64,000 nucleotides of DNA from Conyzicola lurida (GTDB lineage: Bacteria; Actinomycetota; Actinomycetes; Actinomycetales; Microbacteriaceae): the NCBI RefSeq assembly GCF_014204935.1, contig NZ_JACHMJ010000001.1, positions 3,286,001 through 3,350,000 on the forward strand. The letters run 5' to 3'. This document shows, in pieces, positions 49,497 to 64,000 of the stretch. Position 1 is the stretch's first letter; each line of letters begins with the position of its first letter. The position numbers were made by a program, and so were the translations under genes. Under the pieces are notes generated by a model. It was not told the origin of the DNA, did no database searches, and was given only the letters and a program-made list of their open reading frames with translations.

Positions 49497-49528
49497 TTCC
49501 GACGCGCCGCGAGGAACCGCGCACAAAA

Positions 49529-49554
49529 AAGGCCCCCGGTTTCCCGGGGGCCTT
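49529..49554. terminator. Strong hairpin terminator bordering the accessory region
   Basis: AAGGCCCCCGG and CCGGGGGCCTT form an 11-bp stem with a 4-base loop, preceded by a run of A. On the minus strand the A-run becomes a T-tract, so the T-rich side faces minus-strand transcription; on the plus strand only TT follows. It separates the core genes from the AT-richer island. Confidence 0.75.
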
Positions 49555-49839
49555 CTCCATGTCGACTGTCTTGGTAAGAGACCTGTGGGTCGTTTACATA
49601 ACTCTTTTTCACGCCACGCCCTCGCCCAAACACAGGGAACTTTTGCACTCGAAGGGGTCGACTGGAACCAGGATCCTCCGCACACTTTGAGAAAATCCTC
49701 CGTGAAGAACTCAGTAAAAATCTAGGTTTTGCGGCGCATCTTCCGCCGCAATCCAACAGAATTCAGGACAATGGCGGGCCGGGCCGGTGTCACTGATCTG
49801 TTCAGTAGGTTTTGGCGACGCTTCGCGGTTGTATTAGCT

Positions 49840-52800
49840 ATGGGCCGGGACAAACTCAAGAAGCCGAAGAAGCAGCCGAAGGCAGGCGCGGTGGATTTGT
49901 CCGCCATTGTCGGCGAATACGACCGCGAGGGTCTCTGGACACTGCTGCTCGCGGCGGGCGCTTCGCCTACAGTGCGACGGCGTTGGTCGTCGATCGGATT
50001 CCTCGTGCATGCGTTTGCGAGAGCGCATTTGTCCGGCTCGAAGCCCACGGCCCCTGAAACGACGTTTGGAAAGTTGCTCGCAGCGGTCGATGCGGCGAAT
50101 CCGGGGTATTCCGCCTATGAGGACTACCTCGCCCCCGACCCCAGGCTGGCCGTCCGTGTCCGCATCGGCGATTCGACGATCCGTCTGTTTCCCGGTTCCA
50201 GCGAGCGGCCGGTTGCCGATGTGGACAGAGCCCTTCTGCTCTCGTCTGCACTAGACGCCAAACTCGTCGGGATACACGGGTTCGGTATCGCTGACCTGCT
50301 GGACGTCGTACTTGGATACGTGGACTTGGTCACAGAACGTTTCGCCGTTGTGTGGCCGGGCGGCGAGCTACCTGATGGATCCACGTCACTCACAGCGGCC
50401 GAACTGGATGTGGCTCGGAAAATCTTCGAGCTAGGGACACCGAAACAGCTCGTCTCGAACGACCGTCAGAAGCTCGCATTGGAGTGGATGACGTCTGAGG
50501 TCAGTGATTTCGATTTCGAGCCGGGACACGCGCAGAGCCCTTTCGGACGGTTCCTCCGGTTCCGCGCAGCACCGGACGAGTCGCCTCGGTGGCTACCTCT
50601 CGCTTTCCTGCCCGAGATCCTCAGCTCCGCCGTCGGAGAACTCGCGAAAACAATCTCCAAAGACTCTGCGTCCAACTTCGCGTTCGCACAGGCGTCGGCT
50701 TCCGCGACGCGGGAGTACCTGTGGAGGTTCGCGCACATGTTGTATGGGCCGCCCGATCTATCCAAGGGCCCGGCCGTTTCGCCGGAGAACGTGGTTCAGT
50801 GGGTCATTCCCTTGGGCGAGCAGCTCACGTTGGCCGTGCAGGTGCTCTCGGGAATGGATGCGGACCGAATCGGATTCCGCGAGGACTTTGCCGTATCGAT
50901 GGTCGCCCGAAAAGCTGCAACGGGTTCGGGCGTCACCGTGAAGTTCCCCAGAGGTGAGGTGCACCTCGACCGGGGCGTAGAAGTGGTGCCGCTTCTCGTC
51001 GTTTCGACACCGGACCACATCATCGTCCCCCAGAGAGGGGGCTTGGCGAGCGTGTCGTTGGACGACCTGCGGTGGATGTCGACCTCCGCTGACAGCGAGT
51101 TCGATCTCCTCAACTTCTGCCGCGACGTTTCCTCTCCAGCGATGACGGGCTCAATCGGGTATGAAGCAATCGACTACTGGGAGACCTGGCGGGACAACGG
51201 AAAAGCATTCTTCACTGGCGCGCACACCGGCGCGATCATGGTCATCGAGCCGCACGCGAGCGGGGAGGAGTGGAAGAGGACGGCGGAATGGACCTCTGCC
51301 GAGCAGGCTCTCGCGGTCTTGGGCCTGCCTGCTTTGAGAGAAACGATTGGCGTCAGCCACGCCCGTGAGGCCCCAGTAGCTGTCTACCGGTGGGTGGACG
51401 CCGAACCCGACCTTGACGCCGACGATATACCGCGAGATGTGTCCGGACGCCATTTCAGGCCGGCTCCGGCCGGGTGGTCGGTGCACACCGGTCCAATTCC
51501 CGTTGCCATATCCGCCGGAGACGCCACGCGGAACGAACGCGAGCACCGTCAGCTCCTCCACGACATGGCTGGGTCGATCGGTTTCGCCGTCGAAGCTGTT
51601 TTGGACGAGTGGACGGCCGCCCATGACGACTCGGGTATTGCCGGATACGTCTTGGATCAGGTGATCCGGGAAGAGAGTGCAGCCGAGACTGGCGCACAGT
51701 GGGTGTCAGACGTAACCATTGACGACCGAGGAATCGTCCACGCGACAGTGAACGTCCACTTCGAACGATTCGCCGAATTGGGCGACGGCGACTCTCCCGC
51801 GATCCGCTCCGAGTTCGCGACTTGGATGAAGGAACTTTTGGTCGAATCCGGCATCAGCCAGGCCAAGACCGAAAGGGTGTTTGCTGCAGTGCTGGCCGCC
51901 CCGCCAACCATGACCCTGAATGTGGCAGAGACTCAGACGAGGCGCAACAATCTTGGCGCTGCTGTCGAAATCGACGACGCCTTCGTCTCCACTGCCAACC
52001 GCATGATCGCCGAACGGGTGAAGGCCGCGGGGGTCGTACCGAAATTGTACGAAGGCGACGAGGCGAAAACTCTCGACCGAGATGTGCTTGCGGCGATCGC
52101 CCTAGAACTTCTCGAAGAGCGCCTCAGTGAATACAGCAGCGACAAGTTGGTTGCCTTCGGGATGGAACAACTTCAGCGGACGGTAGACAACAGCGCCCGG
52201 AAGCTCGAGAACGTCCGACGATCCGCTAGGGAGCTCTCGCTCAGCTGGGATCCAGTCGACCGCGCAGCCCAGACCCACGCGCAAGGACACGTGCTGCGCC
52301 GGTATAACGAAATTGTCGTCGAGGCGGCCCTTCGCTCAGCACCATCCGGCGACAAGATCATGGACGAGCCCGCATGGGGCGGAATCCTTGCAGCCGCCAA
52401 GGCCTACTTGGAAGCGACCGCACGCAGCGAGAGCATCCACTACCAAGTCACCCCAACGGCGATCAAAATCAGCGATCTTTTCGAGATCACCATCCAAGAC
52501 GTCACTCTTATGGGTCCTGCCAAGGGCGGGAGAAATCCCTACCAGTTGAACGGCGCCGAGTACTCCGAAGCAATAATCCGGGAAGGCTTCGAAGACGACT
52601 GGCCGGAAAGCGCGGTGCCCGCTTCGCTTCATGAGGCCGTCGACGTGGAGATGCTCGCCGCCTTCGGGGCGACTTCGCTCGACATCTATGCGACTCTGTT
52701 GTCTCTCGCCGGAATCGAGTACGCGCCTGGCGACACTGAGGTGAAGTCGATGTCGGTCGATCAGATGCTCGCATGGGTGCTCAGTAATACGACCTTGGGC

Positions 52801-53565
52801 GAGGAGGAGAGCGGCGAAGCCCGTGTCACCGCTGCCCTTGCCTTGCTCACCAGCACCGGCGAGGGCTTGCGGAAGGACGATTGGCGGCCGTGGCTCGCCC
52901 GGACCCGTCTGAGGCGCCTGCTCGTTCAACCGCTGCCGACGTTGAGCACTGGTGAGGTTCTCGTCGCTCCGCACTTCCTACTCTCGTCACTGAAAGTGTT
53001 TGGCGGCTACCTCAACCAGGGGCAGCTCCCGTGGAGCCAACCCGCGCCTCCTGTTCCTCTCGAACGTGCTCTGGAGCGGTTCCGCGACGCGAAGAACACA
53101 GCGCTCGAGAAAGACGTCGTCGCGCTGTTGGTAACGGACGGATGGTCAGTCGTCAGCAACATCAAGGAGACGAAGCCGAAACGGCTCGGGCTCACATCGT
53201 TGTCGACCGAGATTGACGCCGTCGCCGGCCGAGCTGGGGATTCGGTCATCCATCTCTTGGAGGCGAAAGATCCCGCAAACGTCTTCGCAATCCCTCAGAT
53301 CAGCCGCCAGCTTGACGACTTCTACCTCGACGGGAAGAAGAACGCCTATGCCACCCAGCTGCAGCGCAAGTACGACGACCTCGCCCCGCATGCCGACAAA
53401 GTGGCCGCTGCGCTCGGACTCCCGCCCAGAGACGCGACAGCCCCGTACCGGGTCGAGGCGACTTTCGTCACCCGTGTTCCCGTGCCGGCGGCGTTCGTCG
53501 GCGGGCCGTTTCCGTTCTTGACGGCCGCGACCCTGCTCGACGGCCTGAAAGCGAAGGAGCACTGA
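49840..53565 (+). CDS. Large protein with C-terminal PD-(D/E)XK-like nuclease domain
   Basis: A 1241-aa protein I do not recognise as a whole. Near the C-terminus LEKDVVALLVTDGWSVV, then STEIDAVAG (Asp near 1124) and HLLEAKD (Glu and Lys near 1139-1141) match the E...D...ExK pattern of PD-(D/E)XK nucleases. The rest is soluble, alpha-rich and without Walker motifs I can see. I chose the ATG at 49840, after which a basic, hydrophilic N-terminus follows; in-frame starts at 49729 and 49771 are possible and all have poor ribosome sites. A second small ORF starts two bases after its stop. Location suggests antiphage function (inference). Confidence 0.7.
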   Translation: MGRDKLKKPKKQPKAGAVDLSAIVGEYDREGLWTLLLAAGASPTVRRRWSSIGFLVHAFARAHLSGSKPTAPETTFGKLLAAVDAANPGYSAYEDYLAPDPRLAVRVRIGDSTIRLFPGSSERPVADVDRALLLSSALDAKLVGIHGFGIADLLDVVLGYVDLVTERFAVVWPGGELPDGSTSLTAAELDVARKIFELGTPKQLVSNDRQKLALEWMTSEVSDFDFEPGHAQSPFGRFLRFRAAPDESPRWLPLAFLPEILSSAVGELAKTISKDSASNFAFAQASASATREYLWRFAHMLYGPPDLSKGPAVSPENVVQWVIPLGEQLTLAVQVLSGMDADRIGFREDFAVSMVARKAATGSGVTVKFPRGEVHLDRGVEVVPLLVVSTPDHIIVPQRGGLASVSLDDLRWMSTSADSEFDLLNFCRDVSSPAMTGSIGYEAIDYWETWRDNGKAFFTGAHTGAIMVIEPHASGEEWKRTAEWTSAEQALAVLGLPALRETIGVSHAREAPVAVYRWVDAEPDLDADDIPRDVSGRHFRPAPAGWSVHTGPIPVAISAGDATRNEREHRQLLHDMAGSIGFAVEAVLDEWTAAHDDSGIAGYVLDQVIREESAAETGAQWVSDVTIDDRGIVHATVNVHFERFAELGDGDSPAIRSEFATWMKELLVESGISQAKTERVFAAVLAAPPTMTLNVAETQTRRNNLGAAVEIDDAFVSTANRMIAERVKAAGVVPKLYEGDEAKTLDRDVLAAIALELLEERLSEYSSDKLVAFGMEQLQRTVDNSARKLENVRRSARELSLSWDPVDRAAQTHAQGHVLRRYNEIVVEAALRSAPSGDKIMDEPAWGGILAAAKAYLEATARSESIHYQVTPTAIKISDLFEITIQDVTLMGPAKGGRNPYQLNGAEYSEAIIREGFEDDWPESAVPASLHEAVDVEMLAAFGATSLDIYATLLSLAGIEYAPGDTEVKSMSVDQMLAWVLSNTTLGEEESGEARVTAALALLTSTGEGLRKDDWRPWLARTRLRRLLVQPLPTLSTGEVLVAPHFLLSSLKVFGGYLNQGQLPWSQPAPPVPLERALERFRDAKNTALEKDVVALLVTDGWSVVSNIKETKPKRLGLTSLSTEIDAVAGRAGDSVIHLLEAKDPANVFAIPQISRQLDDFYLDGKKNAYATQLQRKYDDLAPHADKVAAALGLPPRDATAPYRVEATFVTRVPVPAAFVGGPFPFLTAATLLDGLKAKEH

Positions 53566-54342: not shown

Positions 54343-55092
54343 ATGATGCACCGAACAGAGTCTGAGGTCCCCGCCTGCCGCCTCGGGTTGCGCGATACGA
54401 TCGCTGACGCGCTCACCGCTTCGCCAGTGTCGTACGCCGAGACCGCCCGCGTCACCTTCATCGCAGTGCCCGGTATCACCCACGAGCAGTGGTGGCCGCA
54501 ACTGGCTGTTTACCTCGACGCGGTGCGGGACGCTGGCGGGAGAGTCGTCGCAGAAGGTCACCTGCTCCACGAACCGGTAGCCGGGCGACGGGCGAGAGCA
54601 CGCCAGGCGCGACTGGCGAAGCATGCAAGTGACGTCGCTGGCGCCTTGTCGCCGCATGGTTGGGTAGACAGCTCCGGCGTCCTGCCTTACTCCACCGAGG
54701 ACGACATCGTCGTTCACAACGAGCGTGACCGCTTGATGGCGTGGCGGTGGTGGCATCTCCTCCTCGAGCTGCCGATCCATCTCTTCCTCCTTCGCAGGCG
54801 GCCGCCCCGTACCTTCGCGCTCGAATGGGAGTGGTTCGACAGTGCAGAGAACCAAGCGTGGACCCGTGTCGCCCGCGCGGAGGCACTGCTGGAAGCCGCT
54901 AGAGCCGTTGACGGAGACACCGTCGTGCTCGTCTCACCGATGATGGCCGCCTATCTCGGCGTAACGGAGCCAGACGGGTGGCAAGAACCATCTGCGACGA
55001 GCGAATCCGTGCGATTTCCTAGATCGCGACCGGTCCGCTCCGCTCCGCTCCCGAAGATTCATCCTCAACACCGAGAACGCTTCGTCCTCTGA
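54343..55092 (+). CDS. Hypothetical protein, unrecognised
   Basis: A 249-aa protein with GGAGAGGAGAC directly ahead of the ATG pair. Marks are VTFIAVPGITHEQWW, GGRVVAEGHLLHEPVAG and a short hydrophobic stretch WWHLLLELPIHLFLL near 130-145. The alternation of VAEGH and VSPMMAAYLGV weakly recalls TraB/GumN-type proteins, but I would not assign it. Its last 74 bases overlap the 3' end of the convergent HTH-ImmA/IrrE gene. Confidence 0.6.
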   Translation: MMHRTESEVPACRLGLRDTIADALTASPVSYAETARVTFIAVPGITHEQWWPQLAVYLDAVRDAGGRVVAEGHLLHEPVAGRRARARQARLAKHASDVAGALSPHGWVDSSGVLPYSTEDDIVVHNERDRLMAWRWWHLLLELPIHLFLLRRRPPRTFALEWEWFDSAENQAWTRVARAEALLEAARAVDGDTVVLVSPMMAAYLGVTEPDGWQEPSATSESVRFPRSRPVRSAPLPKIHPQHRERFVL

Positions 55093-56188
55093 TCGGGGTG
55101 CGGGAAGTGATGATCTCGAAGACGGGGCGCGGGAGACCCGGACCTCTGAGCAATTGATCGGAAGGGATGCCCGCGTTTTCGAGGATCTGCACGGCTTGAG
55201 GCAGCAGTGACGGCATCTCGAGGACACCGACGTTCCCGGGTTCTGCACGTCGCCACCCTCGCTGGGATATGGCGATCATCGCGTTGCGGTAGCTGACATC
55301 GCCCATGATCCCGAGAGCGCGGGCACGGAAGAGAAGTGACTGCATGCTGACTCCCCAGTGTTCTTTCAGCGCTCGCAACTGCGTCCACCCGCTGCCGGTT
55401 GTTGATTTGGGAAGATGCGGGCCTATCTCGTCGGCGGGCATGAGGAACTCGGATGCGAATCTGTGCGCTTGGTCTTCGACGATTCGGCCGCCTGGTTCTG
55501 CGTCCGAGTGCATGATCAGGTGCCCCAATTCGTGTGCGACGTCAAAGCGCTGCCGGTAGTAGTCGTCCTTTTCAGGATTGAGGACGATGACAGGGCGAGT
55601 CGAGCTCTCGAACGAGTAGGCGTCAATCGAAGCTGTCTGTGACGGGCTGAAAACGACCAGCACTCCGGCGTTCTCAACGAGACGGATAAGGTGCGGGACT
55701 GGGCCCGTGGCGAGTTTGAGATGACGGCGGGTTTCCCTTGCCGCCTCTTCCGGAAGTCCGGATACCGTCTGAGTCCCGTCCACAGGTACTGATGGAAGGT
55801 CAGGGGCTGGGAACTCCACCGACTTTTCGAGCAGCGACGCAACATCGGAAGCTAGCCGTCCATACGCATAGGCCTGGTCTTGCAGCTTCTGGCTGGTGGC
55901 CCGGAGGGATCGGAAGTGCGGCATCGCGGGGATGAACGCGTTGAGGCCGGCCGGATGGAAGAAGTGCGGTTCGACCTGCAGCACCAGACTCAGCTTCGCG
56001 ACAGCGGCTTCGTTGGGCTTCTGCGCGCCGGATTCCCACCCGGACACGGACGCCGGGGCCATGCCGATCCGATCCGCCAGCTCGATCTTCCTCAATCCTG
56101 CCAATTGGCGGGCGAGGGTGAGTTTTTGCGGGTCGAAGATGACGGACGCGTTGGAAGACCGTCCCGTCGGACGATTCGTTGAAGACAT
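55019..56188 (-). CDS. HTH domain plus ImmA/IrrE metalloprotease
   Basis: A 389-aa protein. An XRE helix-turn-helix (LARQLAGLRKIELADRIGMA, about 25-44, extending to about 72) is followed by an ImmA/IrrE peptidase domain with zinc motif HELGH at 219-223 and a further ligand in EDQAHRFASEFLMP (238-251). Known relatives cleave repressors (ImmA, IrrE) or form toxin-antitoxin pairs. It follows a 265-aa gene by 17 bases, the two being one transcription unit. Convergent overlap of 74 bases with the gene at 54343. Confidence 0.85.
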   Translation of the reverse strand: MSSTNRPTGRSSNASVIFDPQKLTLARQLAGLRKIELADRIGMAPASVSGWESGAQKPNEAAVAKLSLVLQVEPHFFHPAGLNAFIPAMPHFRSLRATSQKLQDQAYAYGRLASDVASLLEKSVEFPAPDLPSVPVDGTQTVSGLPEEAARETRRHLKLATGPVPHLIRLVENAGVLVVFSPSQTASIDAYSFESSTRPVIVLNPEKDDYYRQRFDVAHELGHLIMHSDAEPGGRIVEDQAHRFASEFLMPADEIGPHLPKSTTGSGWTQLRALKEHWGVSMQSLLFRARALGIMGDVSYRNAMIAISQRGWRRAEPGNVGVLEMPSLLPQAVQILENAGIPSDQLLRGPGLPRPVFEIITSRTPIRGRSVLGVEDESSGAERSGPVAI

Positions 56189-58212: not shown

Positions 58213-59055
58213 ATGGAAATCGCATCGTCCGAGGCACGCCAAGCGCTCCATTACTTGAGCTCGGTACAACGACACGGATACGCTCCGACAGCTGCCGAGC
58301 TTGATGCCTACGCAGGCGGACCGACCCCTCGGTTTTTTCCTGCGCCTGGCAGCGGGATGATCCGTTGGACCAGCGACTTCGAGGAGTTCCAGCGATCGGA
58401 AGACCTGCGCGCGGGAAGAGCGTCATTCGAAAGCTTCGCCACGTATCTTGTCCGCCTAGGTTGGGCGGCGCTCGTCCCGGAAAAGCGGTTGTCGATCACC
58501 GCGCTGGGCATTGCGGTGCTCGGCGCGATGAACGACGAAGCCGCATTGGACATCCAGATGGTAGTCGCCAAGGCGATCGACCCCGACGATCCTTTCGCCT
58601 ACGCGAAGATCATTGGCGAGATCGCGGGAACCGACGACGCGATGGTCGTCGACCCCTATTTGAAAAGCGACGGTCTACAGGACCTTCTCCGTCTGGCCAG
58701 CGTCAGCCGGGTCCTCACATCGGACGAGTCCCGTCCGGGGAGGTCCAAACCGAGCCCGAAGATTGCTGTGTTCGAGCACATGGTCGAGGCCTCCGTCGCT
58801 TCCGGATTCGAATTGCGGATACTGCCACTGGCGCAGATGCACGACCGGTATGTGATCCCGAAGTCCGGATCTGTACTGAACCTGACCACGAGTTTCAACT
58901 CGATCGGGCAACGAATCGGCGTCGCCGTGTGGCTCCCGGAACTGCCGAGTGCCGCGATCAGGGATGCACATGCCGCGCTATGGGCTGCCGGCACGGCAGT
59001 CGCACGGCAGTCGCCGCCCGGGCCGGAGAGCGACCCGGGCGCGACGACACTCTGA
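58213..59055 (+). CDS. Winged-helix plus PLD-like domain protein
   Basis: A 280-aa protein. The middle (about 68-105, FATYLVRLGWAALVPEKRLS and following) looks like a winged helix. The second part, DDAMVVDPYLKSDGL near 136-150, and MHDRYVIPKSG near 209-219 followed by TTSFNSIGQRIG, matches phospholipase-D-like folds with a HxR-type motif in place of full HKD. Enzymatic activity is uncertain. It converges end to end with the small minus-strand gene at 59056. Confidence 0.6.
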   Translation: MEIASSEARQALHYLSSVQRHGYAPTAAELDAYAGGPTPRFFPAPGSGMIRWTSDFEEFQRSEDLRAGRASFESFATYLVRLGWAALVPEKRLSITALGIAVLGAMNDEAALDIQMVVAKAIDPDDPFAYAKIIGEIAGTDDAMVVDPYLKSDGLQDLLRLASVSRVLTSDESRPGRSKPSPKIAVFEHMVEASVASGFELRILPLAQMHDRYVIPKSGSVLNLTTSFNSIGQRIGVAVWLPELPSAAIRDAHAALWAAGTAVARQSPPGPESDPGATTL

Positions 59056-59247
59056 CTATCCGACGTCCTTGAGCAGGTCCGCCGCAGCGAGAGCCTCTGC
59101 TTCGCCGATGTAGCGGGCGCGAGTGCTCTCCGGGGCGTTCGGCCACACGGACGGCAGTTCGCCGGTGCGGGTGACGAACAGCAGCCTCGCTACAGTTCCG
59201 ATCAGTTCCGTGCGTTCCGTCGCGGGTGCTTCGTTGGTCTTGTCCAT
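59056..59247 (-). CDS. Small hypothetical protein downstream of the glycohydrolase gene
   Basis: A 63-aa protein beginning MDKTNEAPATERTELIG, unrecognised. GAGGA precedes the ATG. It lies 75 bases after the glycohydrolase gene on the same strand and may be the fourth gene of that operon. Confidence 0.5.
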   Translation of the reverse strand: MDKTNEAPATERTELIGTVARLLFVTRTGELPSVWPNAPESTRARYIGEAEALAAADLLKDVG

Positions 59248-59322
59248 GATGATGTCCTCGATTCCGACCGGGACGATTTCCTGGTCGGATGGAACATGCG
59301 CGGCACCCGCCGGCCGAAAGAA

Positions 59323-61062
59323 CTAGCGGCGAGTCTGGAGCGACGAACGGACCGCGCCCGCGAAGGTCGCCATCTGCTCGAGCGTCCCGTCCCGTGCGAT
59401 CCGTCCGAGCGCCTGTCCGACTGCGCTGTCCGAGAAGCCGTTTCTCTGAAGCCAGACGAGGATCAGGTCGATGTCGATCGACGAGCCGAACGGCCAGTCG
59501 CGCGATGCGTTCGATTTCACGGTCCGTGACGATGCTTCCGGCTTCGATTTGACTGCGATCTCGTCGAATAGTGCCGGCTGAGGCTCCGAGGGACGGGACG
59601 CCGCCTGCTTGGTCGGGACAGCAGCTGAGCGGGCTTCCACAGGCTGGGGGCGCCGTACACGAGGCCCGTTGCCGGCGGGAAGTTCGGTCAGCGTGGTGCG
59701 GTGTTTGATGAGCACGCTGGGGCCGAAGGACGTATTCGCCCAAGCCCACGCGGACTCGCGGACAGTCGACTGCTCGGTGGTGAAGGTCAGCCATCCGAGT
59801 CCCGCCAGAGCGGGCCTTCCGTCAACCAGACCGACGACGTCCAGCTGGGAGTGTGGCGGGGTCCAGCGCAGTATGTCGGGGTAGGAGAACTTCGGCGCAG
59901 CACGCCCGACACCTACCCGAGTGAGCCGGTCCGCTTCGTCGTGAAGGTATTTGCGGTCCTGAATCCCGTCCGGGGCAGGAGTTGCTGTTGCCGCGCCGAC
60001 GACAGCGGCGACCATGGTGGCGATCGTGTCGGTGTCGGTGCCGAGTATCGAGGAGGCGAGGACCGCTGCGTGGCGCGGGTTGTCGGGCAGGGCTGCCGCG
60101 AGAACCATCGACGCGACGACGGTCGCCGTGCCGCTCCCGCGGGTGTCTTTGTCGGATAGGCCGAGGATACGGCCCGCTTCGATATAGGCGTCGGCTGCGG
60201 ATTGGGCGCGGTCAGGGTCCGCGAACGCTCCGATCGCCTCGACCAGCGGCGCGCAGGCAGCCAAGGCGCTGCGGCATTCGTCGACCGTCGCCGACCATGC
60301 GACGTCAAGCGACTCATAGGTTTCCGATTCCCATCGCGGCCGCCAGTAGGAGATGAGCTCGTCGTCGCGGTCGAAAGCCAAGATCGCTCGGGCCGCCCGT
60401 TCGAGGAGTCCGTGCCAGTCGCGTTGCGACGGTGCGGCGCCGTGTGCGAGAGCATGCGCGAGCGATAGCGCGTGGAGCACCGCTCCGACGAGCGCCCTGG
60501 GGTGCCCGTGGGTGACGATCGAGTTGCGGATGACGTCCGTCAGGTACTCGTCGCCTTGTAGGTCCCGTGCAGCCCAGACGTGCGGCTGGATCCGCATCGC
60601 GGCGCCGTTGCCGCCCGCCTTGGTCCATCCGGGGAAGAAGTTCGTCGACCAGGTCGCGCCGGACTTGGTCATGTTCGCTGCAGCTGCTCGCGAGGCGCGG
60701 CCTCCGCCGAGAGCGTAGGCGGGCCAGACGGTCAGTTCGATGCGGGCGAACGCCTCGACGTCGAAGCCGTCGCCGGAGACCGCCCGCGAGGTCGCGAGAC
60801 GGAGCTGTGTGTCGTCCGAGTAGGTGCCAGCGGGCAGCTCGATAGCGACGCCGAATTTTCCGCCGACCCGTCGCGTCCAGGCGAAGGTATCGGTCAGGGG
60901 CCGGCCTTTGGTCCGCGTGTGGAACAAACGTTCGTCGACGAGTTCGGAGACGAACCCGAGAGCATCAGCCCAGGCGGACCACAAAATCGACGCGCTGGCC
61001 CTCTCGAGCCGGACGAGTTCCCGCCCTGAGGGACCGACGGAGGCTGGTTCTGATCCGGACAT
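59323..61062 (-). CDS. ADP-ribosylglycohydrolase (DraG/ARH family), candidate antitoxin
   Basis: A 579-aa protein whose first 360 residues form an ADP-ribosylglycohydrolase. WADALGF (31-37), YSDDTQ (81-86), NGAAMR (152-157), THGHPRA (184-190) and GTDTDTIATM (341-350) are the motifs that bind two Mg2+ ions and ADP-ribose. The remaining 220 residues are less conserved, including a low-complexity linker near 460-510. AAAGGAGC is a strong ribosome-binding site before the ATG at 61062. It follows the DarT-like gene by 74 bases. Removal of ADP-ribose put on by that protein is the obvious hypothesis, which would make it the antitoxin. Confidence 0.85.
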   Translation of the reverse strand: MSGSEPASVGPSGRELVRLERASASILWSAWADALGFVSELVDERLFHTRTKGRPLTDTFAWTRRVGGKFGVAIELPAGTYSDDTQLRLATSRAVSGDGFDVEAFARIELTVWPAYALGGGRASRAAAANMTKSGATWSTNFFPGWTKAGGNGAAMRIQPHVWAARDLQGDEYLTDVIRNSIVTHGHPRALVGAVLHALSLAHALAHGAAPSQRDWHGLLERAARAILAFDRDDELISYWRPRWESETYESLDVAWSATVDECRSALAACAPLVEAIGAFADPDRAQSAADAYIEAGRILGLSDKDTRGSGTATVVASMVLAAALPDNPRHAAVLASSILGTDTDTIATMVAAVVGAATATPAPDGIQDRKYLHDEADRLTRVGVGRAAPKFSYPDILRWTPPHSQLDVVGLVDGRPALAGLGWLTFTTEQSTVRESAWAWANTSFGPSVLIKHRTTLTELPAGNGPRVRRPQPVEARSAAVPTKQAASRPSEPQPALFDEIAVKSKPEASSRTVKSNASRDWPFGSSIDIDLILVWLQRNGFSDSAVGQALGRIARDGTLEQMATFAGAVRSSLQTRR

Positions 61063-61136
61063 CGCGCTCCTTTCGTCGTCTGTGTAGCTGAACTGCTGGC
61101 GCGACCGACTGCTTTGCGATGAGCGAGCTGCCGGGG

Positions 61137-61808
61137 TCACGCTGTTTTGAATACGTCTGGATTGCACGCTACAGCAACACCGGAGAGGTCGACTTTCGAG
61201 GCAGCGGCGAACACGGCGAGAAACCCGGCGACTTCGTCAACCTGCCCCGGCTCGGCCACGTAGAGGGCGCGTAGGTGCTCGAGGCCTATGGACACGGGGT
61301 AAAGGACTTCGGCCTGCGGGTCCGTAGGAAGCGATGAGGGCATTCCCTGGTACCTGCGCGAGATGGACCCGTAGTGTCCCCATTCGACGGAAGGAGCGAA
61401 CAGCGCGTCGAACGCGTCGACGCCGCTGCCGCGGAGTGCACATCCGTAGGTGTTGTTCGTCGTCGCGAATTCGACGTCGTCGTGCCCGACGATCTCTACG
61501 TCGAATGCGAGGACCACCCACCAGATGTCGTCTTCGGGATGCCACTTCTTCGAGGACTTCAACATCCGGCCGTTCACGCGCGAGATCGACAGATTCACCC
61601 AGTCAGTCCAGTCGGCGTCGCCGGCACGGCTGGGCGAGTTCATGAGACGTATGTTCTCGAGGTACTCGTCCTCTTCGAGCCGGTCGTGACTGAGGAGCTT
61701 CTCGGAAGCGAGGATGCCAACCAAGCCGCGGTTCGTGGTGAAGTGCAGGATCTCGGTGATGCCGCGTTGCTGAGCGCTGGCGAGGACGGCGGCGCCGGCG
61801 GCGTTCAC
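61137..61808 (-). CDS. DarT-like ADP-ribosyltransferase, candidate toxin
   Basis: A 223-aa protein with the DarT (DUF4433) layout. EILHFTTNRGLVGILASEKL (19-38) aligns with the NAD-binding start of DarT, with His22; WVNLSIS (70-76) fits the following strand; QAEVLYPVSIGLEHLRALYV (165-184) aligns with the C-terminal strand that bears the catalytic glutamate, here Glu167. Known DarT enzymes ADP-ribosylate thymidine or guanosine in single-stranded DNA and block replication. The GTG start overlaps the helicase stop (GTGA), so it is translationally coupled. Its target is not known. Confidence 0.78.
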   Translation of the reverse strand: MNAAGAAVLASAQQRGITEILHFTTNRGLVGILASEKLLSHDRLEEDEYLENIRLMNSPSRAGDADWTDWVNLSISRVNGRMLKSSKKWHPEDDIWWVVLAFDVEIVGHDDVEFATTNNTYGCALRGSGVDAFDALFAPSVEWGHYGSISRRYQGMPSSLPTDPQAEVLYPVSIGLEHLRALYVAEPGQVDEVAGFLAVFAAASKVDLSGVAVACNPDVFKTA

Positions 61809-63199
61809 ACGCTGACTTTCGTGTAGGTTCCGTCGTTCATCAGTGTGACGACCGAGGACGCCTCCGACTTCTTGTATCCGATGGTGACGGACGTCCTCGC
61901 ACGGCCCAGACCCATCGCGACGAGGCGGCGCAGCGACTCGAACTGCGAATCGCCGGCCTCTTCGCCGTGCGGGGTGACCTGCTGATTCAGACCGAGCAAG
62001 ATGACATGGTCGAATTCGAGTCCCTTCGCGGAGTGCAAGGTACTGACCGCCACGTTCTCGTCGCCGCCCGGCCAGGTGGACTTCTGCGTGAGCTCCACCC
62101 ACGCGATCAGTTCCGTGTCGAGGCGTGTGCGCACGGTGTCGAACCAACGCCCGCCTCGCGGCTTCAGGAAGGCAACAGATTCGTTCGCGGCCACCGCCGG
62201 CTTCACGACGTTTTCGATCGCCCAGTCCAGCTGGCCGTTGTACAGACCGGTGAGCACGGTCGGCAGGGGCCCGGTCCGCGTAGCTGCAGAGAAGTCGGGA
62301 AGCTCGCCGTCGTCTCCGATTTCCAGCCCTTCGACGAACGGTCGCGCGAACGCGGCGATCTCGCGAGTGTTCCTGTAGTTCGTTTTCAGCGTGCGAGTTG
62401 TGCCGGGGGCTGCGTTCGCCTCCCGCCATGTGAAGCCGCGGGGGTAGATCTGCTGGGCCGCATCCATGACGAAAGTCACCTGGTGGTCGTCGGCTACGTG
62501 CGCCATGACGGTCCTGAGCTGGTTGGCGGAAAAGTCCTGTGTCTCGTCGATAACGACGACGTCCCACGGGTCCGCGGAGATCTTGCCGGCCGCGATGGCG
62601 AGGTCGTTCCAGTCAGACCATCCGAATTCGGCTTTGCGGTCCCGGTACGGGTAGATGACCTCGTCGAGCAGGCGGCGTCGGGTGGCCGCCTCCATCCTCG
62701 GCGACTGGCCTCGGCCGATACGGCGGAGACCGATGTAGTCCTCGAGCTTCTCGGGCTCGAGACGGCTGAGGACGTATTCGACTTCGTCCTTGACGAAGTC
62801 GAGGTCGCCGCCGAATTTGCGGCAGAGCCCGCGCAGCAGCGCTTCGCAGTAGTCCGGTTCGAGCGCGACGGTTTCCGATGCGAGATCACGGGCGAATTTG
62901 GCGAAGGTGACCACGCGCAGTTCGAGCCCTTCGAGTTCCTTGATCTGCTCCTGCGCGAGCGCTTCGATGTAGCCCTTGAGCGTCGTGTTGAACGTCAGCA
63001 CCAGAACGCGCACTGGACCGGGCAGGTCGAGCCGCGCCTTCCGGTTCACCCAGAACGCACACAGTTGGCGGAGTCGGAGCAGCGCTGTCGTAGTCTTGCC
63101 GCTACCCGCGGCCCCTTTGATGAGGAGCACGCCCGGTTTGTTCTCGGTGAGCAGCGCTAGCTGTTCGGCGGTCGGCGGGACTTGAGGGAGTAGTCGCAT
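61805..63199 (-). CDS. UvrD/Rep-like SF1 helicase, first gene of the DarT operon
   Basis: A 464-aa helicase. GAAGSGKTT (29-37) is Walker A, VVVIDETQDF (214-223) is Walker B, MDAAQQIYPRGFTW (245-258) is motif III, VSTLHSAKGLEFDHVIL near 395 is motif V, and GLGRARTSVTIGY motif VI. It is much shorter than UvrD (about 720 aa) and lacks most of the accessory 1B/2B insertions. ATG 63199 with GGAG upstream is preferred over a GTG at 63211. It probably senses or unwinds damaged or phage DNA for the DarT-like protein (inference). Confidence 0.88.
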   Translation of the reverse strand: MRLLPQVPPTAEQLALLTENKPGVLLIKGAAGSGKTTTALLRLRQLCAFWVNRKARLDLPGPVRVLVLTFNTTLKGYIEALAQEQIKELEGLELRVVTFAKFARDLASETVALEPDYCEALLRGLCRKFGGDLDFVKDEVEYVLSRLEPEKLEDYIGLRRIGRGQSPRMEAATRRRLLDEVIYPYRDRKAEFGWSDWNDLAIAAGKISADPWDVVVIDETQDFSANQLRTVMAHVADDHQVTFVMDAAQQIYPRGFTWREANAAPGTTRTLKTNYRNTREIAAFARPFVEGLEIGDDGELPDFSAATRTGPLPTVLTGLYNGQLDWAIENVVKPAVAANESVAFLKPRGGRWFDTVRTRLDTELIAWVELTQKSTWPGGDENVAVSTLHSAKGLEFDHVILLGLNQQVTPHGEEAGDSQFESLRRLVAMGLGRARTSVTIGYKKSEASSVVTLMNDGTYTKVSV

Positions 63200-63289
63200 G
63201 TCGTTCTCCACGTTCGATGTCGGCGATGGACCCTGCGGGCGTCAGGGTCCGGTCGTGGCGGCTGCGCTGCCGCCACTTAGTGCGTTGAA

Positions 63290-63769
63290 TCAGGTCGTGC
63301 AGGAGAGATTGGTGAGAGCGGTCGAGTTCACGCCGACGCCCTTGTTGGCGGTGAGGGTGTGCACGATGGTTGTGCCGTTCATTGCTCTCACCGTTCCGGA
63401 TGTGCGCGCGTTCGCTATAGAGCGGGCGGACCCGCCGAGCTGCGCGAGGCTGTTCGCTGTACCTTCCGCGGAACATCCTGTGAAGGCGAGCTTCGTGCCC
63501 GAGTAGTTGGTGGAGCTGAATGCGCAGTAGCTGCCGGTCGCGCACGTTCCGATTGCACGGGAACCCGGGGAAGGGAACGTGAGGAGGATCGCGCCGCCGT
63601 CCCACGAGACCGTCGTCGCCGAAATCTGAACCCCGCCCGGGAAGTCGGCGAGCACGCCGTCTATCTGAGCTTGCAGGCCTTGGTCTTCTTCCGGCAATGC
63701 GGAAGCGGGCGCTGCGCCCAACCCCATAAGAAGGAGTGCGGCGGCTATAGCTACTGCGAGTTTTCTCAT
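63290..63769 (-). CDS. Secreted peptidase-inhibitor-I36-like protein
   Basis: A 159-aa protein with a clear signal peptide: MRKLAVAIAAALLLMGLG followed by APASA, cleavage near residue 24. GTCATGSYCAFSSTNYSG and the later GGSARSIANARTSGTV match the peptidase inhibitor family I36, related to beta/gamma crystallins; paired cysteines probably form disulfides. It starts directly after the stop of the partial upstream gene (TAGATG), so the two are coupled. Found at a defence island but not obviously part of it. Confidence 0.75.
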   Translation of the reverse strand: MRKLAVAIAAALLLMGLGAAPASALPEEDQGLQAQIDGVLADFPGGVQISATTVSWDGGAILLTFPSPGSRAIGTCATGSYCAFSSTNYSGTKLAFTGCSAEGTANSLAQLGGSARSIANARTSGTVRAMNGTTIVHTLTANKGVGVNSTALTNLSCTT

Positions 63770-64000
63770 CTATTCGGATTCTTTCCATGCGGTGTAACTG
63801 AGGACGGTCATTGCGGGCAAGTTGGTGTCCTCAAGTCCGCCTAGGTAGACGTCTTCAGCGGAAAGGAGAAGACCGGTGGCTAGGTCGAAAACGAGGATGT
63901 CCTTGAAGTTCCCGTCAGCGCGGGTCTCGGTTTCGAGCGCGATGCCTTCCCGCCCGAGCCGGTCGGTGACCGTCCCCGCCAGGACGACGTCAGGAAGCGT
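63770..64000 (-). CDS. C-terminal part of an unidentified protein, cut by the window edge
   Basis: Seventy-six residues are visible before the stop. They read like a beta-rich domain: DVVLAGTVTDRLGREGIALE, then FKDILVFDLATGLLLSAEDV and ending LSYTAWKESE. The pattern of a value stored with a type-like tail resembles the C-terminal domain of CU044_5270-type actinobacterial proteins, but this is only suggestive. It is coupled to the I36-like gene. Confidence 0.55.
   Translation of the reverse strand, partial: TLPDVVLAGTVTDRLGREGIALETETRADGNFKDILVFDLATGLLLSAEDVYLGGLEDTNLPAMTVLSYTAWKESE

Follow-up and report, generated by a model that had tools for sequence, protein, structure and literature searches.

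A conserved locus of a UvrD-like helicase, a DarT1-like ADP-ribosyltransferase and an ADP-ribosylglycohydrolase, predicted to act in toxin-antitoxin control or phage defence

How is a DarT-type toxin held in check, and aimed at its target, when its neighbour is neither a macrodomain nor a NADAR protein? This question is raised by three genes in a stretch of 64,000 nucleotides (the window; positions 3286001-3350000 of the 3.64 Mb chromosome of Conyzicola lurida), which encode a superfamily 1 (SF1) helicase, a DarT-like ADP-ribosyltransferase (ART) and an ADP-ribosylglycohydrolase (ARH), hereafter the trio. In the accessible text of three reports, macrodomain and NADAR erasers are the only DarT antitoxins named (PMC11833690, PMC10789625, PMC11543638). 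The trio looks like a further, putative type of toxin-antitoxin or phage-defence system based on DarT. We consider it reasonably probable that the genes form a mobile, self-contained module that would combine DarT1-type ADP-ribosylation of DNA, reversal by the ARH, targeting by the helicase and defence against phages or plasmids.

Anatomy and co-inheritance of the trio

The trio spans 63199-59323 on the minus strand, as three open reading frames (ORFs) in the order helicase, DarT, ARH (Table 1). The helicase stop codon and the GTG start of DarT share four bases (GTGA), and DarT is probably translationally coupled to the preceding helicase gene. The ARH frame begins with an ATG 74 bases beyond DarT; a longer frame, from a GTG at 61167, is likewise open. 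No promoter was found in a scan of 58900-63800, which says little given the GC-rich genome. A sequence-only reading of the window had described three same-strand genes, the first two overlapping by GTGA, with intact catalytic motifs in all three; the same ORFs were found here, and E167 of DarT, SDDTQ and TDTDT of the ARH and the Walker A and B motifs of the helicase are both present and conserved (see below).

Table 1. Features of the trio in the window.
Feature	Position	Strand	Details
SF1 UvrD-like compact helicase, trio gene 1	61805..63199	-	464 aa; Pfam UvrD_C and UvrD-helicase
DarT1-like ADP-ribosyltransferase, predicted toxin	61137..61808	-	223 aa, GTG start
ARH/DraG-family ADP-ribosylglycohydrolase with C-terminal extension, predicted eraser/antitoxin	59323..61062	-	579 aa
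ARH first metal motif, SDDTQ codons (residues 82-86)	60805..60819	-	translation, conservation
ARH second metal motif, TDTDT codons (residues 342-346)	60025..60039	-	translation, sequence, conservation

Co-inheritance was assessed at loci selected by DarT only, using an alignment of four DarT proteins against one genome each of 84,980 species. All three genes were present in the same order and on the same strand at 56 of the 59 loci found, which is not a matter of chance; the genomic survey suggested in the sequence-only reading thus gave a clear answer in favour of a conserved trio. L067 and L068, which are not among the complete trios, are truncated by contig ends. Counted by a set start-codon rule, four-base overlaps occur at the helicase-DarT junction in 30 and at the DarT-ARH junction in 15 of the 56 loci. 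Frames are broken in a few cases (helicase in L057 and L062, DarT in L063 and L065), and the ARH of L042 and L044 runs past the contig end. According to the record titles, many of which denote metagenome bins, the 59 loci belong to Actinomycetota (26), Pseudomonadota (24), Acidobacteriota (3), Thermodesulfobacteriota (3), Chloroflexota (2) and Bacteroidota (1).

Plasmids were searched with DarT by tblastn, yielding seven records, of which six were opened. The four best matches came from two Cereibacter plasmids and from Salmonella and Streptomyces; the three opened were all trio loci, including a Cereibacter plasmid whose helicase is present as an ORF unlisted in the annotation. In the Cereibacter azotoformans plasmid, DarT was judged to lie beside the ARH from the match positions. 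Reverse searches gave a similar picture: with the ARH as query a DarT adjoined in 8 of 8 plasmid records, and with the helicase (E limit 1e-20) 7 of 8 records were trio loci, Geobacillus being the sole record without a trio. These searches also revealed a more diverged 'trio B' in Shinella, Rhodococcus and Streptomyces NBC_01220. Both loci found on viral contigs (IMG/VR) carry the trio, one with the ARH in two frames. A phage origin was considered and not upheld: neither the query protein P0001 nor the Salmonella relative had a match in 50,697 phage records.

The distance matrices of the three proteins (51 loci) were correlated with Mantel r values of 0.87-0.91, while the 999 permutations all gave values of 0.14 or less. 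This indicates that the trio genes have long travelled together. When 430 heuristically called ORFs from the flanks of L010-L070 were clustered, no family was shared by more than five loci, and no fourth conserved partner was seen; the widest family was found at four Streptomyces loci and one 'Actinobacteria bacterium' locus.

The three proteins and their relation to known systems

The predicted toxin matched Pfam PF14487 above the curated cut-off (E 7e-13) and, weakly, the DarT model of PADLOC 2.0.0 (E 0.003); no NCBIfam model matched at E 0.1. Its catalytic E167, within QAEVLYP, and N118 are kept in 58 of 58 alignment rows (A2, without the broken DarTs of L063 and L065, the cut loci L067 and L068 and the plasmid loci), and they align to the catalytic E152 and the base-coordinating N104 of DarT1. 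Profile, fold and tree assign the protein to the DarT1 (guanine) branch, next to the DarT1 enzymes that have NADAR as partner, and the macrodomain-linked DarTs sit on the opposite side of the tree. The trees contained 26 hand-picked rows of the main family (trio A), and the careful tree was built without the Nostoc DarT and the second DarT of the genome, both of which are long-branched. A thymidine-type DarT, as implied by the database name 'ssDNA thymidine' DarT, was ruled out by the same three comparisons. The sequence-only reading had called the 223-residue protein DarT-like and had pointed to the conservation of its catalytic Glu among relatives; it aligns with the DarT fold, of DarT1 type, and not with a different one, and the Glu is invariant.

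The ARH matched a single Pfam family at E 0.1, ADP_ribosyl_GH (PF03747; E 1.5e-23, above the curated cut-off), and no model of PADLOC 2.0.0; it is thus neither a NADAR nor a macrodomain protein. It has the ARH fold, the two metal motifs and the flap Glu of the superfamily, and E40, D83, D84, D343 and D345 are invariant in 57 rows (alignment A3, without L042 and L044, which are cut, L070 with its split ARH, the plasmid loci and L062; the ARH of L062 looked intact and its omission was needless). It is the only ARH match in the whole C. lurida genome.

The helicase matched both UvrD_C (E 4.6e-13) and UvrD-helicase (E 9.7e-10) of Pfam above the curated cut-offs, and the solved sequences that it matched are HelD, PcrA, UvrD and Rep. 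GAAGSGKT (residues 29-36) and IDETQD (217-222) are its Walker A and B motifs, in which K35, T36, D218 and E219 are invariant (57 rows; alignment A4, without the split helicases of L057 and L062, the cut L021 and the plasmid loci; L036 and L068 supply no helicase). With these motifs and the N- and C-terminal UvrD domains it is of the SF1 UvrD-like type. The strong match (E 2e-201) occurred in 1 of 398 genomes of the family, which is the source genome itself; four others gave far weaker matches (E 5e-41 to 2e-46) in frames of 710-752 residues. The closest PADLOC models were those of the defence helicases NERD+UvrD C3a187 and Gabija GajB. However, Pfam detects no NERD domain in the protein, and its neighbours are PF14487 and PF03747 proteins, not the GajA OLD-family nuclease of Gabija.

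With DarTG1 (DarT1-NADAR) the trio shares a DarT1-type toxin, its fold, the catalytic Glu, the base-reading Asn column and an eraser gene directly downstream; the eraser is an ARH instead of NADAR, and an SF1 helicase precedes the toxin. With DarTG2 (DarT2 and the macrodomain protein DarG) it shares the Pfam family of the toxin and the arrangement of a writer and an eraser of DNA ADP-ribose, but in the DarT tree the DarTG2 toxins fall on the opposite side, and the partner in the trio is no macrodomain protein. Tre1, of the ART-ARH pair Tre1-Tri1, is an effector aimed at other cells. The entries 8za7 (Listeria) and 6dre, as well as Bxa-BAH (PMC11699363), are pairs of an ART toxin and an ARH immunity protein; the Listeria toxin, by the title of the entry, and Bxa, by the part of the article available, are likewise directed at other cells. 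Bxa modifies protein arginine (PMC11699363), and the accessible descriptions of Tre1-Tri1, 8za7 and Bxa-BAH mention neither DarT nor a helicase. No DarT-ARH system was found in the open-licence literature by title and start of the abstract, among the matches listed, and a description elsewhere is possible.

The partners of other DarTs were also determined. In 396 genomes of the phylum, 22 DarT matches were found in 21 genomes. Three of these, the window's own included, belong to the trio family, and all three are accompanied by ARH and helicase. At the other 19 loci, 13 ORFs matched Macro, among the matches listed, and the ARH profile matched no ORF within about 1.5 kb on each side. On the NADAR-like side of the DarTs, a NADAR partner was confirmed with the same Pfam library at 7 of 9 opened plasmid loci; for L107 and L108, on that side, none was seen in the annotation table or the ORFs. 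Within DarT1, an ARH is the partner in trio A, trio B and Nostoc, where a plasmid carries an AAA_11/AAA_12 protein (which we take to be of SF1 helicase type), a DarT-domain protein and an ARH inside a bacteriophage exclusion (BREX) locus (L071:1-6320). The NADAR and ARH partners at DarT1 loci point to one slot that is filled by either eraser according to lineage, BREX settings included. In a Deinococcus BREX locus (L007:3060-6280), which is one of the seven NADAR loci, the DarT-domain protein has a NADAR partner, an eraser unrelated to the ARH found in Nostoc; the BREX-embedded DarT-domain proteins of both loci have long N-terminal parts.

Proposed mechanism and alternative explanations

In the mechanism that we propose, the DarT1-like enzyme would use NAD+ to attach ADP-ribose to a base of single-stranded DNA, most likely guanine, and would thereby block replication; fold, clade and the conserved active-site residues argue for this step. 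The ARH would act as antitoxin by metal-dependent removal of the ADP-ribose, in the slot that NADAR occupies in DarTG1 and DarG in DarTG2; its position, its co-inheritance and the intactness of its Glu and metal-site residues suggest this role. Such a step is chemically plausible, since N-linked ADP-ribose is a substrate of ARH1-type enzymes, one of which uses its catalytic Glu to neutralise an ART toxin (PMC11699363, in the portion available). The UvrD-like helicase may direct or license the toxin on unwound DNA, for instance at phage replication or repair intermediates. Although this is the weakest step of the mechanism, the nearly constant presence of the helicase suggests how a DarT toxin could be aimed. 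The whole trio would most likely serve in phage or plasmid defence. A more specific proposal, a third DarT class in which the ARH erases ADP-ribose from DNA bases and the SF1 helicase lets the toxin act on single-stranded DNA of phages or of replication, is possible, just short of probable in our judgement, and is put forward tentatively.

Several observations weigh against the proposed mechanism. The column of M71 in DarT1 is occupied by M, F, Y or L in the trio DarTs, and at the column of R35, in which 55 of 58 relatives carry Arg, the window DarT has His. An Asn in or close to the base-reading column is shared by several macrodomain-linked DarTs and is thus no proof of a guanine target. In L036, DarT and ARH occur without a helicase match, and a different gene lies upstream that looks by eye like a short-chain dehydrogenase; a functional system may thus not require the helicase. 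In L070 an intact DarT lies beside a split ARH, for which a sequencing error is possible. With respect to the chemistry, the ARH-like proteins described in the accessible part of PMC11833690 left guanine ADP-ribose in RNA untouched and were active on phosphate ends, and on ADP-ribosylated uracil (U-ADPr) most ARH-like enzymes were inactive, with low activity of human ARH3 (PMC13036486, available text). Finally, the proposed activities are all predicted from sequence. The interpretation in the sequence-only reading, a toxin-antitoxin or abortive-infection system, is accordingly supported in part: anatomy, intact motifs, the conserved trio and the DarT clade were observed directly, and DarT toxicity, its substrate, reversal by the ARH and phage defence keep the status of predictions.

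The trio could in principle operate as a protein switch like DraT-DraG, in which the ART marks a protein, perhaps the adjacent helicase, the ARH reverses the mark and the helicase is the effector. ARH1, ARH3, DraG and Bxa-BAH are described, in the source texts available, as acting mainly on protein linkages (Arg, Ser), and the helicase is nearly always present at trio loci. We nevertheless regard a protein switch as unlikely: the ART falls among the DNA-modifying DarT1 enzymes by fold and tree, and L036 keeps DarT and ARH without the helicase. The trio also differs from the DraT-DraG nitrogenase switch in that its writer is a DarT by fold and its hydrolase is extended at the C terminus. RNA is a substrate of some SF1 helicases, and a CmdT-like toxin would mark mRNA or tRNA exposed by the helicase, with the ARH removing the mark. 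Other ART toxins do modify RNA (PMC11543638, PMC11833690), whereas DarT1 and DarT2 act on single-stranded DNA (PMC11125620, PMC11543638; all as far as the accessible text goes) and the helicase profile matches HelD, PcrA, UvrD and Rep, which renders an RNA toxin improbable. Least probable of all is an ARH that guards against foreign ADP-ribosyltransferases, with DarT as an independent, helicase-triggered effector outside ARH control. Host ARG systems acting against viral ARTs have been predicted (PMC9503650), but this prediction, in the text available, rests on ARGs without a coupled ART; in the trio the ART is adjacent to the ARH and co-evolves with it, as seen from the correlated distances.

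If the favoured mechanism holds and the ARH reverses a DNA-base mark, ARHs would be a third eraser superfamily active on DNA bases, and one toxin family would have acquired erasers of three unrelated folds. Removal of ADP-ribose from DNA bases would be new for ARHs, the nearest activity in the reports, as far as accessible, being the low one of human ARH3 on the uracil adduct. The module occurs naturally in E. coli and on Cereibacter and Streptomyces plasmids, and is thus easy to test.

Genomic setting and further observations

Much of the window between 32 and 49.4 kb is collinear with same-genus genomes, and of its last 14 kb only short pieces align with them. A DarT ortholog was present in 1 of 99 genomes (source and relatives), namely the source genome itself. 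In G005, one of five other genomes of the genus, DNA of 86% identity extends from beyond the window end into the helicase gene; past this homologous stretch the sequence is different. A helicase remnant (L109:2263-2733) is present at the site, and no DarT or ARH match was found in the 14 kb fetched. The remnant makes it seem that members of the genus have both acquired and lost the trio. As a candidate attachment site, a repeat of some 30 bases (49526-49560) was considered and rejected: it reads as a terminator-like hairpin, is common to relatives and lacks a second full copy in the 80 kb covered. The genus-variable stretch opens with an ORF of 1278 residues (49729-53565, plus strand) without a Pfam (E 0.01) or PADLOC (E 1e-5) match, the C-terminal part of which looks restriction-endonuclease-like by eye. 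About 3 kb from the trio, at 55019-56188 on the minus strand, lies a gene for a helix-turn-helix and M78 peptidase protein (PADLOC RmrA, E 3e-112).

The source genome contains two DarT matches in total. The second, a diverged protein of 288 residues (L001:1489-2355; G000 C1 about 1457527-1458150), contains a stretch with Cys residues near its N terminus; within the 3.6 kb read, no eraser gene was recognised. DarT-matching frames of 300 and 321 residues occur in two same-family genomes (L099, L100).

Of 179 flank ORFs in relatives, 95 were compared with PADLOC and gave mostly single defence matches, among the matches listed, including two RmrA-like genes; the scan ran without a random control and no enrichment in defence islands is claimed. 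In E. coli the trio is present in 21 of 5426 complete genomes, as full-length chromosomal copies in the 90-95% identity band to the Superficieibacter copy (94.0% in the 15 listed). The one island opened of the 21 (L101) carries tyrosine integrases, an AlpA-type regulator, Tmn (the neighbouring P-loop NTPase; PADLOC E 8e-222) and the RADAR gene rdrB. The public labels at L101:15001-18759 read '3'-5' exonuclease', 'ssDNA thymidine' DarT and ADP-ribosylglycohydrolase, of which the first two look misleading for the trio family. On Streptomyces tsukubensis pST1 the trio (L006:1-4338) adjoins genes for TniQ, an ATP-binding protein, a DDE transposase and a TnsA-like protein, which suggests that it is carried by a Tn7-like element. 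The E. coli, pST1 and RmrA-like settings fit a role in defence. The diverged trio of Rhodococcus WAY2 (L072:2521-10246) has a HigA-RelE pair and a multiubiquitin-ThiF cluster in its vicinity.

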